A stretch of 64,000 bases of DNA from assembly GCA_025449735.1 (NCBI GenBank), contig JANWIV010000002.1, positions 1-64,000 of the forward strand, given 5' to 3'. The DNA is from Candidatus Microgenomates bacterium. Lineage in GTDB: Bacteria > Patescibacteriota > Microgenomatia > UBA1406 > HO2-37-13b. A program made the position numbers and the translations under genes. The first letter of the stretch is position 1. Each line of letters opens with the position of its first letter. The notes under the pieces were generated by a model. It ran no database searches. It was not told the origin of the DNA and was given only the letters and a program-made list of their open reading frames with translations. Below are positions 135 to 38,845 of the stretch, piece after piece.

Positions 135-1580
135 ATGAAAAAAATAATTAAAAAACATTGGCTATTTACTATCTTTATCAGTGTTTTTTTTCTCGCACTG
201 GCATTTAAAATAACTACCAGTCCGACTCCTTTTTATGATTGGGATGAATCGCTTTATATCCAAACTGGGATGGAGATGTATTCTAATAATTACTTTTTGT
301 TTCCTGTCTGGCAGGGTGAGATTTGGATGGATAAGCCCCCACTGATTCCGCTTACCTACGCGACAGTGGCCAAACTTTTTTTCTTCATCTCTCCTGAGAT
401 ATCAACCCGACTTTTCACCCTTGCAATCTCAACAGTAGCTTTGACATTCTTGTATATGCTTTATCAGAAATTATTAAAAGACAACTTTCTTACAATTTTG
501 ACCCTTCTGATAACAGTAACGACGCCAATATTTTTACAACGGACTCAGGTGGTGAATTTGGATCTTTTCTTGCTTCTAGGTTGGCTTGGATATTTATTAT
601 TTTTCAAAAATAAATTCGCCAGTTTTTTCTTTCTTTTTATTGCGGTGATGAGCAAATCGTTAATTGGTTTTTATCCCGCATTTATGATGGCCGGATTTTA
701 CGTTTTTCAATTTATAAGACATAAGATAAAAAAAGAAGAATTAAAATCGGCATTAATTCAGATTGCAATACAAGTCTCAATTCTGTCTTTATGGTTTGTG
801 GCGATGTTTGCTCTTTATGGCAGTGAATTTTTTACGACTCATATTGTTGAGAGTCATTTGCGTCGTGTCACTTCATCTATTGAGTTTCATTTTGGAGAGA
901 GGCTTTATTACATTAACCTAGCTCGTGAGCAATTGGGAATATTTTTTTGGTTGAGCCTTGTCGGACTTGTTGCTGCAATACATAAATATTTCAATCGAGA
1001 AAAAGAGCTATTCAAAAGTTTTTATCTTTTGCCTTGGTTTTTGTTTCTTAATTTGACGAAAACGAAAATTTTCTGGTATTTTTTTGCCGCGGTGCCACAG
1101 TTTGGTTTTTTAGCTATACTGCCGTTAACATATTTAAAAAAGGGCAAGAAACTTTATCACCTAGCGCTGATTTTAATTACTACGATTTTAATTTATCAAT
1201 CTTTTATTAAGCAAAAAGTATTTGCCACAGTATATTCAAAACAAGAACCATATTTGGAATTATCTCTTTATGCAAAGGAACGCTGTCGCTCTCTATATGT
1301 CTTGCAAGATGCGCAAACCAGAAGCAGTTTTGCGGAACTTGAAGATTTGGGACTTTTGATTTCAACGACAAAATGGTGGGGTAGTCACCCATCGATGGTT
1401 TATTATTTTGGTCGCACAATATACTTTTTATATAGCGAAATAGAGCTTGAAAATGAGAATAAAAATATTGCGATTGGTGATTGTTTGGCAATCAATAATG
1501 AAGATAAAGCTCTTATCACTGATGACTCATTTACACCATTGAAAACTTTTGGGAGCGATATCCTATTTAGTAAGCAATAA
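135..1580 (+). CDS. GT39-like membrane glycosyltransferase
   Basis: Polytopic protein of 481 residues resembling the ArnT/PMT (GT39, GT-C fold) group, which transfers sugars from polyprenyl-phosphate donors at the outer face of the membrane. An N-terminal membrane segment (about 10-28) is followed by an acidic DWDE motif at 35-38, the usual place of the catalytic acidic residues in the first extracytoplasmic loop. A KPPL stretch (about 68-71) and many further hydrophobic segments follow. The acceptor cannot be told from sequence. It converges on the GT2 gene at 1586-2515, a likely supplier of a polyprenyl-phosphate sugar, and opens a long glycan region. Confidence 0.8.
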   Translation: MKKIIKKHWLFTIFISVFFLALAFKITTSPTPFYDWDESLYIQTGMEMYSNNYFLFPVWQGEIWMDKPPLIPLTYATVAKLFFFISPEISTRLFTLAISTVALTFLYMLYQKLLKDNFLTILTLLITVTTPIFLQRTQVVNLDLFLLLGWLGYLLFFKNKFASFFFLFIAVMSKSLIGFYPAFMMAGFYVFQFIRHKIKKEELKSALIQIAIQVSILSLWFVAMFALYGSEFFTTHIVESHLRRVTSSIEFHFGERLYYINLAREQLGIFFWLSLVGLVAAIHKYFNREKELFKSFYLLPWFLFLNLTKTKIFWYFFAAVPQFGFLAILPLTYLKKGKKLYHLALILITTILIYQSFIKQKVFATVYSKQEPYLELSLYAKERCRSLYVLQDAQTRSSFAELEDLGLLISTTKWWGSHPSMVYYFGRTIYFLYSEIELENENKNIAIGDCLAINNEDKALITDDSFTPLKTFGSDILFSKQ

Positions 1581-1585
1581 AATAA

Positions 1586-2515
1586 TTATTTAAAGCCGAT
1601 TTTAGACTCAATGATATATTGTGGTCGATGCTTTGACTCTTCATAGACTCGGCGCAAATATTCTCCTAAGATTCCAATTGAAAAAAGTTGCAAACCTCCG
1701 ACAAACATGACGAGTATTATGGTTGTGGCAAATCCAGGGACTCGGCTATAGGCGGTGGTAAAAAATTTTAGATAGACAGCACCAATAATTCCCAATAGAG
1801 AGATAAAAAGTGATAATAATCCTAAGTAAAACATCACCTGAAGTGGAGCAAATGAAAAAGAGAAAATGCCATCAAAAGCCAGTTTCATGAGGCGCGAGAA
1901 ATTATATTTGCTTACTCCGCCATGACGACTTTGTCTTTCATACTCAAGACCAATTTGCTTAAATCCAATCCAACTACGAAGCCCTCTTATAAAACGATTT
2001 CGCTCTGGCAAGCTATTTAGTGCGCTCACCGCGCGGGCACTAAGAACACAAAAGTCACCAGAATCTAGCGGAATATCGATGCTGGCGACTCGACGAAGAA
2101 GATGATAGAAAAAACTATAACAAGCTCTCAATAAAAAATTTTCTTTCCGAGATTTTCGAATCGCATAAACAACATCATAGCCTTCCTCAATTTTTTTAAA
2201 AAACCTCGGTAATATCTCAGGAGGATCTTGTAGATCAGCATCAAGGACGGCGACAATTTCGCTGCCAGCGTGTTCAAGGCCGGCAGTGACAGCTACTTGG
2301 TGACCGAAATTTCGTGACAAGTTTATTATTTTAACCCGGCAGTCTTTTTTACTGATGTTAAAAAGGAGTTGTGGAGTAGTATCAGTCGACCCATCATTAA
2401 TAAAGATAAGTTCGTATTCTTGCTTCAATTTGCTTAAAACCTGGCTACATCTTTTATAAAGAATGTCGATATTTTCTTCTTCATTGAAAACCGGTAAAAT
2501 AAGTGAATATTTCAT
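1586..2515 (-). CDS. GT2 polyprenyl-phosphate glycosyltransferase (DPM1/GtrB-like)
   Basis: 309 residues. The N-terminal GT-A domain starts with LILPVFNEEENI (5-16), has a DGSTD nucleotide-binding segment (41-45) and a DADLQD metal/donor motif (92-97). Two C-terminal membrane segments (about 225-250 and 262-285) are typical of the GtrB/ArnC/DPM1 group, which charges a polyprenyl phosphate with one sugar from a nucleotide sugar. The product would feed GT-C enzymes such as the neighbours at 135 and 2639. The sugar is unknown. ATG start at 2515; no Shine-Dalgarno is visible. Confidence 0.88.
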   Translation of the reverse strand: MKYSLILPVFNEEENIDILYKRCSQVLSKLKQEYELIFINDGSTDTTPQLLFNISKKDCRVKIINLSRNFGHQVAVTAGLEHAGSEIVAVLDADLQDPPEILPRFFKKIEEGYDVVYAIRKSRKENFLLRACYSFFYHLLRRVASIDIPLDSGDFCVLSARAVSALNSLPERNRFIRGLRSWIGFKQIGLEYERQSRHGGVSKYNFSRLMKLAFDGIFSFSFAPLQVMFYLGLLSLFISLLGIIGAVYLKFFTTAYSRVPGFATTIILVMFVGGLQLFSIGILGEYLRRVYEESKHRPQYIIESKIGFK

Positions 2516-2638: not shown

Positions 2639-4195
2639 ATGTTTGATATTGTTGCAATAATCTCATTTCTAAAGAAAAATATAAAAGGTAGAGATCTCCT
2701 TTTCATTTTCGGTTTAATTCTCCTCTATTTATTGAGTAGGCTTTACAATCTCGATCACTTTCCAATTTTTTCTGATGAAGGCATTTATATTAGGTGGGCA
2801 AAGGTCGCTTGGCAAGATGCCTCTTGGCGGTTCATCAGTCTTACCGATGGCAGGCAACCACTCCAAACTTGGGGGACAATTGCTTTTTTGAAATTATTTC
2901 CTGAGTCAGCGCTATATGCTGGCAGGATGTTTTCGGTCGCCACTGGTTTTGCGGCAATGTCTGGTATGTTTGCGCTACTTTGGTACTTATTCAATAAAAA
3001 AACCGCTTATATAGGCACATTGCTATATTTAGTTACGCCATCATTTTTGTTTTACGACAGGCTGGCCTTAGTTGATTCATCGGTGAATGCCGGAGTTATT
3101 TGGATAATTTTATTTTCGATTATTTTGGCTCGAACAATTCGACTGGACGTGGCGATTATGCTGGGAGGGATATTTGGTTTTTCACTTCTTTCGAAATCAT
3201 CAATGAAACTTTATCTCGGCCTTTCATATCTGTCAGTACTTTTTTTGGTTATCAAAGAAGATCATAAATTTGTCGATTGGTTCAGGTTGTCATTTATTCG
3301 TGATAAAAAGCTTCCTTTTATAAAGATAATGAATTTTAGTGTTTTGTTTGGTGTTGGCGCTTTTATTAGTTACTTAATCTATAATGTCCAACGCTTGTCA
3401 CCATTTTTCCATTATGTCGCCGAAAAAAACAAGACCTTTGTTTTAACTGGATCGGAACTTTTGAATGATCCATTTTCCCTTCTTATAGCCAATATTCCCA
3501 AGATACCCTATTATTTGTTTTCTGAAATGGGCTATGTTATTCCCATCCTTGGAGTGATAGGGCTGATATTGCTATATCGAAAAAACAAGCCTTTAAGTCT
3601 TTATTTAAGTTTATTTTTTATACTGGCATACTTACTAATTGGTAGTGTCGCCAAGGTGCTTTTCCCTCGATATCTATTGCCACTGGGCTCGGTTTTGTTT
3701 ATCCCGGCCGTCTACCTATTAACCTCTATCGAGCGCAAAAAACAGCTTTTGCTAACAATTCTAATTGTCATCTCAATTATTTATCTTGATTTTACAATTC
3801 TTTTCAATTACAAAAATATTCCGTTTCCGGCGGTTGACCGGGGTCAATATATTGAAGGGGTGACTGCCGTCTGGGGAGCTGACGAATTGGTTGAATTTGC
3901 GAGACAAAAATCAGTGGAAAAGCCAGTTATTTTGCTTGCTGAGGGCAACTTCGGTCTAATCGGCGATGTCTTGGAGACATTTAAGAAACCCGGAGACAAA
4001 ATCGAAGTTCGTGGATATTGGCCGCTAGAATTACCACAGCTTATGGAAAATAAGTCTGCACTCGATGACCACTTCGTTTATGCGGTTTTTTCTCATCGCA
4101 CTGAGTTTCCGACCGATTGGCCACTAAAATTAGTTAAGAAATATGAAAAACCAGTTGGTGAAAATGCGGTCTATCTCTTCGAATTGACAAGATAA
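2639..4195 (+). CDS. GT39-like membrane glycosyltransferase
   Basis: 518 residues from the ATG at 2639. An upstream in-frame GTG at 2588 is rejected because the extra residues are translated repeat element. Very hydrophobic, with a loop motif SDEG (about 45-48) after the first membrane segment, as in GT39/PMT-type enzymes that use lipid-linked sugars. Large soluble loops are few; the C-terminal 120 residues look extracytoplasmic. Sequence is clearly different from the gene at 135, so substrate or acceptor probably differs. It lies head to head with the GT2 gene at 1586-2515. Confidence 0.78.
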   Translation: MFDIVAIISFLKKNIKGRDLLFIFGLILLYLLSRLYNLDHFPIFSDEGIYIRWAKVAWQDASWRFISLTDGRQPLQTWGTIAFLKLFPESALYAGRMFSVATGFAAMSGMFALLWYLFNKKTAYIGTLLYLVTPSFLFYDRLALVDSSVNAGVIWIILFSIILARTIRLDVAIMLGGIFGFSLLSKSSMKLYLGLSYLSVLFLVIKEDHKFVDWFRLSFIRDKKLPFIKIMNFSVLFGVGAFISYLIYNVQRLSPFFHYVAEKNKTFVLTGSELLNDPFSLLIANIPKIPYYLFSEMGYVIPILGVIGLILLYRKNKPLSLYLSLFFILAYLLIGSVAKVLFPRYLLPLGSVLFIPAVYLLTSIERKKQLLLTILIVISIIYLDFTILFNYKNIPFPAVDRGQYIEGVTAVWGADELVEFARQKSVEKPVILLAEGNFGLIGDVLETFKKPGDKIEVRGYWPLELPQLMENKSALDDHFVYAVFSHRTEFPTDWPLKLVKKYEKPVGENAVYLFELTR

Positions 4196-4779: not shown

Positions 4780-6681
4780 CTAGTTCTTATTTTTTGAACT
4801 CACTAGGTAAAACAGAGTTATTACCACTGTCAAAATAGATAAAACATTGGCGTATTTTCGGACTCGGGTATCTTCAAATCTAAATTCGAGCCTGTAAATC
4901 CCTTTTGGAATATTGACCGTGATTAATCTGTAGGGATTATTGTCAGAAATTATAATGTCATTGCGAGGTGTCGGCGACGTGGCAATCTTTGAGATTGTCT
5001 CAGAATCGTCCGCAACAATAGGACTAAGATAGGCATGCCAACCTGGGAAATTAAATGTATGCAATTGAAAAGTAATAGGTTCGATTGTTTTCACGTAAAA
5101 GATTTTATTGCTGTAATTAGCAAGCTCAATTTTGACATCGGCAGCGCCTGAAGCAACCTTAAAGAGATCTTTGGTTATTTCTTCCTGGTTTATATCGATT
5201 ATTGTCGTCCCAAGTTCGCTTTTTTTTGTAATCACGCCACTGGGGGCAAATTCAAAACTGCTTCGACTGATTCTCCAAGCGATTTCATCATAGGTGGTGC
5301 GTTCGGCGTCGGACGTTTGGATAAACCGCTGGGGTGCAAAATATTTTGATTGAATTGACAATATAAGCAATATTGTTAGTATAGGAATTAGCCACTTTGT
5401 CATTCCCGATTTAATCGGGAATCTATTTAATAAGGATAGATTTCGTATCGAGTACGGAATGACATCGGTTTGAAGTAACTTTGTACCTTGTTCTATGGCA
5501 AACCCTCCGATAAGGGCAACAAAAATTGCCGTAAATGATAAGAACCGCCAAGGAAATTGAAGATATTGCAATGGTTTGATATTATTCCAGATGAACTGAG
5601 AGTAAACAGTGGTCATGAAAAGGGAGAAGAGCATAAGAATGAAACATGAAACATGAAACATGAAACCGGGAGGAAACTTCCTTTTTCTTCTAAAGTAGTT
5701 CGTACAATTTATTAAAATTAGTAAAAATCCGACTGCAATTATTCCGATATAGATTTTGCCTAGTTGAAATGACATGCCATCAGCCCCTCCAGCAACTGAG
5801 CCCCCGAATCCCCATTGTGACCACCAGAATTGAAAAGGTAGTACATAGTGCAGTTTATATGAAGCCAGCTCAGTAAGCAATATGCTATCTGTCAAGGTAT
5901 ATTTTCGTTCAAGCATTGAAGGCAACCAATAGAAAGCAGAAAGCCCCAACGAGATAATGCTACCCAAGATTGAAAATACAGTAAATCTTACCCAGGATAT
6001 CGATGAGATTCTTACGTCGCTCTGCTCCTCAGAATGACAAAAAAGGTTAAAAAAAATAAAATAAATACTTAGAAATAATATTGCCGGCACCGCGATAAAT
6101 GGATGAGCTAAAATTAAAAGAGCAAACCAAAAAGCAAAAATGAAGCTTTGTCTCAATTCGGGTTTTTTATGCAAGTTATAAAAGGAGAGAAATACCATTG
6201 GAAGCAAACTCATGGCAAAAAATTCTGCAAAAGCACCTCGAACATAGATGGTGGCGGCTCGGTAGCCAAAATAGGTAAATAATGCTGTCGCAACAAATGA
6301 CGAGCCTTGAGTCATAAATTTGCTTGCCAGTTTGTACATCCCAATAGCACCGACAATAATGCCGACTATCACCATTAGCTTTATCGCGACGATATATGAG
6401 GCGCCAAGAATTACAAAAAAATCAGCAAGGTAATAAATCAACGGTGGATAGAAGTTAAACAGAGGATAGCCAAAGCCAAATCCAAGAGTGTCGACCCACC
6501 GTGGGTAAAGATTTCCTTGAGTAATTGCGCTGTGGAGCAAATGGAGTCGGGCGATATGTTGATCATCATGCATCGGAAAATAGCTATTATTAATCAAGTT
6601 TATAAAAGCAGGGATTGTTATAATGAACAAGAGCAGATAGAAAATTATTTTTTTTGAAGGTTTGATAAAAAAAGACCTCAT
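4780..6681 (-). CDS. PTPS-related-type polytopic membrane protein (glycosyltransferase-like)
   Basis: 633 residues from ATG 6681; a longer reading from 6753 adds a non-coding-looking tail. The N-terminal part (MHDDQHIARL, then YPRW and NFYPPLIYYLAD) resembles membrane proteins labelled 6-pyruvoyl-tetrahydropterin synthase-related, which are probably GT-C-like transferases acting on surface glycans. About 12 membrane segments and a C-terminal extracytoplasmic beta-rich domain ending in another membrane segment. Odd: it contains four repeat-derived stretches in frame (4957-5000, 5399-5464, 5639-5666, 6003-6039). A TATACA-like -10 lies about 9 bases upstream of 6681. Confidence 0.75.
   Translation of the reverse strand: MRSFFIKPSKKIIFYLLLFIITIPAFINLINNSYFPMHDDQHIARLHLLHSAITQGNLYPRWVDTLGFGFGYPLFNFYPPLIYYLADFFVILGASYIVAIKLMVIVGIIVGAIGMYKLASKFMTQGSSFVATALFTYFGYRAATIYVRGAFAEFFAMSLLPMVFLSFYNLHKKPELRQSFIFAFWFALLILAHPFIAVPAILFLSIYFIFFNLFCHSEEQSDVRISSISWVRFTVFSILGSIISLGLSAFYWLPSMLERKYTLTDSILLTELASYKLHYVLPFQFWWSQWGFGGSVAGGADGMSFQLGKIYIGIIAVGFLLILINCTNYFRRKRKFPPGFMFHVSCFILMLFSLFMTTVYSQFIWNNIKPLQYLQFPWRFLSFTAIFVALIGGFAIEQGTKLLQTDVIPYSIRNLSLLNRFPIKSGMTKWLIPILTILLILSIQSKYFAPQRFIQTSDAERTTYDEIAWRISRSSFEFAPSGVITKKSELGTTIIDINQEEITKDLFKVASGAADVKIELANYSNKIFYVKTIEPITFQLHTFNFPGWHAYLSPIVADDSETISKIATSPTPRNDIIISDNNPYRLITVNIPKGIYRLEFRFEDTRVRKYANVLSILTVVITLFYLVSSKNKN
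4957..5000. repeat. Palindromic repeat element inside a CDS
   Basis: GTCATTGCGAGG...GGCAATCTttGAGATTGtC. GTCATTGCGA and the GCAATCT/AGATTGC hairpin are the same parts seen at 10003-10074 and 20459-20487. It is read in frame in the minus-strand gene 4780-6681. Confidence 0.8.
5399..5464. repeat. Palindromic repeat element inside a CDS
   Basis: Starts GTCATTCCCG and ends CGGAATGAC. Contains perfect 10-base arms ATTCCCGATT / AATCGGGAAT (5402-5411, 5413-5422). 66 bases, a multiple of three, read in frame by the gene 4780-6681. Confidence 0.85.
5639..5666. repeat. Four copies of ATGAAAC inside a CDS
   Basis: Four tandem exact ATGAAAC heptamers, one base different from the unit of the array at 1-119. 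On the coding strand they encode a cysteine- and aromatic-containing stretch next to a membrane segment. Confidence 0.95.
6003..6039. repeat. Palindromic repeat element inside a CDS
   Basis: A shorter unit of the type GAGATTCTTACGTCGCTC...CCTCAGAATGAC, with outer arms that pair imperfectly. Translated in frame within a loop of the gene 4780-6681. Confidence 0.7.
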
Positions 6682-9702: not shown

Positions 9703-10917
9703 TTATTTTACTGCTTTTTTATATTTTGCAACAATATAAATAAGGTTAGTAATCATGGCGACAATAATTATTTGGTGTTTGAGGAGAACCTTTTCCGGAC
9801 TATCCCAGCCACCCAAGAAAATGTAAGGATAATAAGATAGTAGCAGTCCGAAGAAGAGGAAACTCAAATTTTGGACAAAATTAAAATAATAAGGAATAAA
9901 GATTAGTAGATTTAAAAAATACCAAGGCTGGACTTCACCTTTGTAACTGACATAGATAATTGTCATAAATATTCCAATCAATGACAATGCTGGCCATATT
10001 TTGTCATTGCGAAAGACCTTAGGGAGCGCGGCAATCTTATGAGATTGCTTCGTCATATAATTCCTCGCAATGACAGACAGGGAAAGCAACATTGCTGGTA
10101 TTGTCATATATTTTATCCCAGCTGATAAAAAGAGCAGACTAGTGCTAAAAATCCAATTTATTCCTTTATTTTTTTTGAGAACTTTAAATATGCGGTGGGT
10201 TTCATTATTAGTAAACAAAATAAAGCAGACCCCAATGAGCCCCAGAGATAAAGCGATTAAATCGTTATGATTATTTACCAGTCCCTCAATAATAACTAAG
10301 GGGCTGGTAGCAAAAAAAAGTGCCCAAGTCCTATTAATTCTATTTAAGCAGTAGACCGTCGACAGGTAAAACAGGGAAAACATTAATTTGAAAAAAAGGA
10401 AGTTTAAGACAAATTTACCCAGTGCTAAAAAAGAGGGAATAAGACTTAATATGAGCCAAGAAGGTCCATATGGATAAGTGCGATGAGTCCAATGCATAAA
10501 TCGGATCCAAGGGTCGGCAGGGAAATCAAGGGCGGTTTTTAAATAAGGATTCTGGCTATAACTTGAGACAATTTTGGCATCAAAGAGATAATTAAAAAAA
10601 TCATGGGATAAAAGCGGATATGAGAAGAGCAATAATCCTGAGATTAAGACGGCTAGTTTAAATGGATTTACTCGTTTTGATTTAAAGGAAAAGTAGTAGT
10701 GGAAACTAGATAATAAAATAATAATCAGCAGGTACAGGCTAAAAGAAAGTGACCTTTGATAATAGCCAATAATTACCATAAAATTTCGAAATGATGTCCA
10801 AGCCCAAGAATTTATTAAGGTTAGATTAGGATCAACTAATACATATGAATAAAAGAGAAGAAAGATTATTAGAAATCCATAAATTGCTACGATTATTTTT
10901 TCATTTAATTTTTTCAT
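9703..10917 (-). CDS. Polytopic GT-C-like glycosyltransferase (mannosyltransferase-like)
   Basis: 404 or so residues from the ATG at 10917 (a TTG two codons earlier also opens the frame). About 11 membrane segments. The loop with SHDFFNYLFDAK and NPYLKTALDFP, then HRTYPYGPSW, resembles polyprenol-phosphate-mannose-dependent alpha-mannosyltransferases and GT87 enzymes. Odd: positions 10003-10074 are a repeat element with 10-base inverted ends translated in frame between two membrane segments. Confidence 0.75.
   Translation of the reverse strand: MKKLNEKIIVAIYGFLIIFLLFYSYVLVDPNLTLINSWAWTSFRNFMVIIGYYQRSLSFSLYLLIIILLSSFHYYFSFKSKRVNPFKLAVLISGLLLFSYPLLSHDFFNYLFDAKIVSSYSQNPYLKTALDFPADPWIRFMHWTHRTYPYGPSWLILSLIPSFLALGKFVLNFLFFKLMFSLFYLSTVYCLNRINRTWALFFATSPLVIIEGLVNNHNDLIALSLGLIGVCFILFTNNETHRIFKVLKKNKGINWIFSTSLLFLSAGIKYMTIPAMLLSLSVIARNYMTKQSHKIAALPKVFRNDKIWPALSLIGIFMTIIYVSYKGEVQPWYFLNLLIFIPYYFNFVQNLSFLFFGLLLSYYPYIFLGGWDSPEKVLLKHQIIIVAMITNLIYIVAKYKKAVK
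10003..10074. repeat. 72-base palindromic repeat element inside a CDS
   Basis: Terminal inverted repeats GTCATTGCGA (10003-10012) and TCGCAATGAC (10065-10074) match perfectly, with an inner GCAATCT / AGATTGC hairpin (10031-10048). Its length of 72 is exactly 24 codons, so it leaves the frame of the gene 9703-10917 unchanged. Confidence 0.9.
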
Positions 10918-10956
10918 AAGCAATAAACTTTAATTCTAAGTCAATGCAAATACGTT

Positions 10957-20385: not shown

Positions 20386-20529
20386 TGTCATTCTGAATTT
20401 ATTTCAGAATCTAAATAAATTGCTTAGATGCTGAAACTAGTTCAGCATGACAAAACATGAGATTGCCGCGCTTTGCTCGCAATGACATTAGTCACCCGCC
20501 TGCCAAAGCCTTGTACGACGGGCAGGTGA
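20386..20529. repeat. Cluster of three palindromic repeat elements
   Basis: 20386-20452 runs from TGTCATTCTGAA to TTCAGCATGACA; 20459-20487 is a GATTGCCGCG...CGCAATGAC unit; 20491-20529 has CGCCTGCC...GGGCAGG arms. Together they fill most of the 394-base gap between the RmlD-like gene and the gene at 20679; I see no gene there. Confidence 0.85.
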
Positions 20530-38639: not shown

Positions 38640-38648
38640 TCCGATCGC

Positions 38649-38845
38649 GTCATTCTGGCAACGTCCAGAATCTATATTGTCATCCCTGAATTAGTTTGTC
38701 ATCCCGGACTTGCCTGCCCGCCAGAGTTTTAACGACGGCGGGATCCGGGATCCACGGGGTAGACTCCATTTGAAATCATATAGCATGACTGGATCCCCGC
38801 GTACGCGAGGATGACATAAGATCCTGAAATAAATTCAGGATGACA
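38649..38845. repeat. Dense cluster of palindromic repeat elements
   Basis: About 200 bases made of successive units with GTCAT starts and ATGAC ends: GTCATTCTGGcaacgTCCAGAAT, GTCATCCCTGAATT, GTCATCCCGG with CGGGATCCGGGATCC, GGATCCCCGCG...GAGGATGAC and a TCCTGAAAtaaaTTCAGGA hairpin. No gene in the gap 38628-38864. Confidence 0.85.

Follow-up and report, generated by a model that had tools for sequence, protein, structure and literature searches.

Palindromic repeats lying in frame within genes are familiar chiefly from Rickettsia, in which their role is unclear: they may shape proteins or be junk that is tolerated. Elements of this kind are described here in a 64-kb stretch of DNA (the window) and in the genome to which it belongs. 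In both systems palindromic repeats are found in frame in unrelated genes, with a predicted peptide added to each product, and the permissive places at which the Rickettsia elements are inserted are also those to which alignments and AF2 models point here. The phyla differ, the likeness being drawn from published descriptions and not from sequence. Unlike the Rickettsia elements, those studied here encode no conserved peptide (they are read in several frames and in either orientation), and they are shorter than RPE-1.

Di Nocera et al. (2013; PMC3733652) defined REPs carrying a CGTC or TGTC tag, present in five phyla and also within genes, and classed R. conorii RPE-4 and RPE-6 among the CGTC REPs. 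Their 3-nt unpaired tail is mostly CCA, as a common consensus rather than an exclusive criterion (PMC3733652). The first-pass annotation had compared our elements with those of Rickettsia, an analogy that is apt in kind since both are in-frame insertions; the published features that match are those of the CGTC/TGTC superfamily, RPE-4 and RPE-6 included. Common to this superfamily and to our elements are the TGTC/CGTC tag at one palindrome end, the predominance of head-to-head dimers, a mostly intergenic location with a minority in genes, and the lack of a detected dedicated transposase, judged here from the Y1 loci of 20 relatives. Stems of 8-9 bp opening with AT and loops of 3-5 nt occur in our short class, the published loops having 4-5 nt, although our search patterns themselves partly imposed the AT stem ends, whereas the long class (E1 and E3, below) differs. 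The tail is CCA there and mostly CT plus one base here (CTA, CTC or CTT in the source genome, CCA being found in relative G017), and the five listed phyla exclude Patescibacteria, the host here. A 2024 review considers the same process conceivable in other prokaryotes (PMC10969869). Our literature search, of incomplete coverage, returned no paper on in-frame REP insertion in CPR bacteria; within that coverage, the phenomenon is known from Rickettsia, and what stands out is the CPR host lineage and the recurrent landing sites.

The REPIN/RAYT systems (GTAG REPs, TnpA-REP) likewise comprise short REP dimers in many copies, and RAYT-size Y1 genes occur in the same genomes as our elements. There, however, the RAYT is flanked by the same REP, whereas the one Y1 transposase gene of the source genome is flanked by another palindrome (GGGTTC/AACCC). 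This gene was considered as the mobiliser and rejected on account of these flanks and of the Y1 loci of REP-rich relatives, where GTCAT-type REPs were adjacent in 0 of 20 cases, bar one distant tag match. REP copy number and Y1 gene count are weakly correlated (rho 0.30). At L001, a RAYT-size Y1 transposase gene (1285-1947, minus strand) has GGGTTC...AACCC inverted repeats on its flanks, a possible further REP family that has a transposase of its own.

The source genome is that of an ultra-small uncultured bacterium which, to judge from the named relatives, is related to Candidatus Roizmanbacteria (CPR), within Microgenomates. Very probably, dispersed TGTC/CGTC-tagged REPs have inserted in functional genes of this bacterium, the in-frame survivors being translated as extra loops. 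The features of the window on which this reading is built are the following.

About 4780/4783-6753, minus strand: host gene of 657 codons (633 from the second ATG), from the ORF list
4956-~5012, plus strand: E1, found by consensus match, a REP TGTCATTGCGAG...GGCAATCT at 4956-4988 with a probably decayed head-to-head partner
5398-5464, unstranded: E2, head-to-head REP dimer encoding DVIPYSIRNLSLLNRFPIKSGMT, residues 430-452
About 6003/6006-6039, minus strand: E3, single REP encoding CHSEEQSDVRI, residues 239-249
5639-5666, minus strand: four copies of the heptamer ATGAAAC (plus-strand spelling) in the host gene, from TRF
9703-10923, minus strand: second host gene, for a 406-aa membrane protein called "ArnT-like" as a label only, from the ORF list and orthologues
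10002-10075, unstranded: fourth in-gene element, REP dimer encoding about VIARNYMTKQSHKIAALPKVFRND, from RNA folding and orthologues
2539-2602, unstranded: intergenic REP dimer
20386-20487, unstranded: intergenic REP dimer
About 38648-38845, unstranded: intergenic REP cluster of four half-elements

The family was searched for with the consensus GTCATYSN{8,30}SRATCT, the reversed pattern serving as control. The 822-kb source genome holds 59 matches versus 3 for the control, and the pattern TGTCATYSYGA gives 45 matches versus 1. Roughly 36-40 element sites, mostly intergenic, were counted from the stretches around consensus matches, a number that depends on the consensus used and is stated as a range because imperfect stems (that of E1 included) were missed and the greedy gene caller misassigned the valyl-tRNA synthetase (ValRS) gene. 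Only about 9-10 of these sites are genic, though 87% of the DNA around the matches is called coding (binomial probability about 6e-19 with about 10 genic sites), and the genic cases, having been detected through open frames, are biased toward in-frame ones. A segment in a metallo-beta-lactamase gene (C3:252648), which may be a chance match, was left uncounted, and elements at the extreme 5' ends of ORFs (C3:321413, C4:26291 and C2:139450) were classed as extragenic. Simple +- pairs make up about half of 36 sites, and most multi-element sites are likewise arranged; the family would consist of short palindromic repeats, mostly head-to-head dimers of about 60-110 bp. Short-class stems are exemplified by ATTCCCGC-GAAG-GCGGGAAT and by the left half of E2 (9 bp, 3-nt loop), while a second class, to which E1 and E3 belong, has long imperfect stems. 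CGTC-tag variants are present in the MiaA, ValRS and GT4 glycosyltransferase elements described below. Among 77 relatives, the number of copies per genome ranges from 0 to 150. No known RNA family was found in the 64-kb window. We discarded the notion of repeats pre-adapted to be coding: intergenic copies have 52 open frames of 156 versus 65 in shuffles and are thus not enriched in such frames.

The product of the first host gene matches the Pfam family PF10131 (PTPS_related membrane protein, 2.4e-10). Its AF2 model has a mean pLDDT of 85.6, and Foldseek matched this model to OST, PglB, AftA and Pmt with E-values of 1e-6 to 1e-3, so that the predicted fold resembles those of GT-C glycosyltransferases (oligosaccharyltransferase subunits, PglB, AftA). 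The first-pass annotation had placed three palindromic elements in this gene; they are present at essentially the coordinates it gave (4957-5000, 5399-5464 and 6003-6039), their ends are those of the intergenic elements at 2539, 20386 and 38649, and none of the three interrupts the frame, whether this is counted as its 633 codons or as 657 from the first ATG. It had also ascribed a common hairpin to them. This holds for E2, whose RNA folds significantly (z -3.0), and not for E1 (z -1.1) and E3 (z -0.3), which fold weakly and without significance and were therefore recognised through the consensus and the insertion test, not through hairpin strength.

We aligned the host protein with its orthologues, the check that the first-pass annotation had proposed, and the segments are absent from them, their residues not being shared. 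Relative to the medians of 30 orthologues, the loop bearing E1 has 29 aa instead of 10 (an excess of 19), that of E2 60 instead of 45 (15) and that of E3 32 instead of 20 (12). Because the host loops exceed these medians, E1, E2 and E3 are regarded as insertions; an earlier alignment of 27 sequences agrees. E1 encodes about SETISKIATSPTPRND (residues ~585-600). Its right end at ~5012 is deduced from a 57-nt excess, and together with the sequence this excess suggests that E1 is probably a dimer with a decayed second half. As had been proposed, the three elements lie in loops, according to the structure prediction: E2 is placed between helices 401-428 and 449-468 (AF2 blocks 63 and 57) and E3 between helices 218-239 and 250-271 (block 53), the blocks at E1 having pLDDT values of 55 and 68. 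All three are thus modelled as low-confidence loops (pLDDT 53-68) that connect helices or belong to a beta domain, within an otherwise confident fold.

Other genes carry in-frame elements as well. A fourth one, overlooked in the first-pass annotation, lies at 10002-10075 in the neighbouring ORF 9703-10923 (minus strand). It has the strongest hairpin (z -4.6), and the corresponding segment is missing or far shorter in 8 orthologues; the 406-aa protein itself has no Pfam match. In LepA the element is located between the G domain and domain 2, residues 209-242 facing only 6 residues of PDB 2ywe. That of ValRS falls between the catalytic and anticodon domains; this enzyme keeps 81% of the conserved columns, versus a mean of 94% for the other rows, with intact HAGH and KMSKS motifs. 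MiaA also carries an in-frame element. In LepA, MiaA, ValRS and the 9703-10923 protein, the segments are insertions relative to orthologues or solved structures. A GT4 glycosyltransferase has an element between its two domains and a GT2 glycosyltransferase a single in-frame element, two cases identified solely by the element match and by where the Pfam domains lie. Where comparison is possible, the in-gene elements are at linkers or loops, and each host protein has probably gained a small additional loop from its element, translation being suggested by the preservation of the frame.

Of 144 relatives, 123 have an orthologue of the first host gene, the named relatives being mainly Candidatus Roizmanbacteria; the close relatives L057, L058, L059, L060, L065 and L114 share 63-70% protein identity. 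In L057, L060, L065 and L114, a single loop of the host protein bears four different REP dimers, in at least three frames; this loop is empty in L058, L059 and L069. REPs are present in L057 in the E2 loop as well, and in the E1 loop in the orientation opposite to that of the window. Similarly, REP dimers occupy the ValRS linker in the source genome, G002, G017 and G024 (in the last in a partly decayed state), the MiaA site in the source genome, G002 and G013, and the LepA linker in the source genome and G065. Since sequence, frame and orientation differ between relatives, these are probably independent insertions at permissive loops, and the whole points to repeated REP insertion filtered by selection. 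Nearly all these genomes are draft metagenome assemblies; the pattern recurs in many independent ones. In L089, the orthologue is broken into two frames near 3400 (a pseudogene or an assembly error), and a REP dimer lies at 3604-3678.

Could the segments be ancestral variable protein sequence whose likeness to REPs is due to chance or composition? Loop lengths do vary in this protein family, but 0.007 consensus matches would be expected in the host gene at the control rate versus the 3 seen, matching copies exist in intergenic DNA, and the absence of the segments from the 30 orthologues already refutes this explanation, which we hold to be extremely improbable. A decaying pseudogene tolerating junk would fit the crowding of three REPs and a heptamer array into one gene. 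Its 657 codons nevertheless contain 0 stops and 0 frameshifts, its product retains 116 of 122 columns conserved among orthologues, and the universal genes for LepA, MiaA and ValRS bear REPs too, which makes decay very unlikely.

It is also highly improbable that the message loses the elements or the ribosome bypasses them, giving a protein without them. E2 and the 10002-10075 element do fold significantly as RNA, but E1 and E3 fold weakly, and all counted in-gene cases are open in frame, which removal would render needless; this last argument is not absolute, ORF-based detection favouring in-frame cases. Co-option of the inserted peptides under selection, or targeting of insertion to these sites, would fit two observations: the same loops were struck independently in several genera, and three REPs in one gene have a chance probability of about 0.003 once the roughly 800 genes are corrected for. 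However, the inserted sequences, frames and orientations vary by species and most orthologues have none, so that no particular peptide is conserved, and permissive loops account for the recurrence; we consider this explanation unlikely. Selection after insertion is the simplest filter. In the preferred reading of REPs inserted in functional genes, insertion itself would be undirected to coding-compatible sites, selection would purge nearly all coding insertions save in-frame, stop-free ones in permissive surface loops, and the survivors would be transcribed and translated as extra loops of 11-36 residues while the host protein keeps working.

More tentatively, a few loops (the LepA, MiaA and ValRS linkers and the GT-C membrane protein) may be recurrent landing sites in Roizmanbacteria and related Microgenomates, where different palindromic repeats would insert, decay and get replaced, so that mobile repeats would keep supplying the whole CPR lineage with new protein loops. 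With a second genome-reduced lineage, where independent insertions share loops of proteins that are universal and of known structure, the Rickettsia question becomes testable by comparative genomics and loop swaps. As a warning, CPR protein annotations contain repeat-derived peptides.

Repeats of other types were also observed. The ATGAAAC array at 5639-5666 lies in the same loop where four relatives bear REP dimers; if the array gained or lost a single 7-nt unit, the glycosyltransferase-like gene would change frame, and the array could act as a phase-variation switch. A perfect array of 16.9 copies of the heptamer ATGAAGC occupies positions 1-118, just upstream of ORF 135-1580; it starts at the window edge and may continue beyond. 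The LepA of L032 (G000:C1) has a second insertion before the DTPGH motif, at residues 66-93, made of heptad repeats of the TCCGAAA type, and this loop is hypervariable across relatives and rich in similar repeats. Finally, repeats of a different kind (SPLRRNVGDPLLKGG / NPLSKRG type) have likewise been inserted in frame at the ValRS linker of L180 and at the LepA linker of L196.
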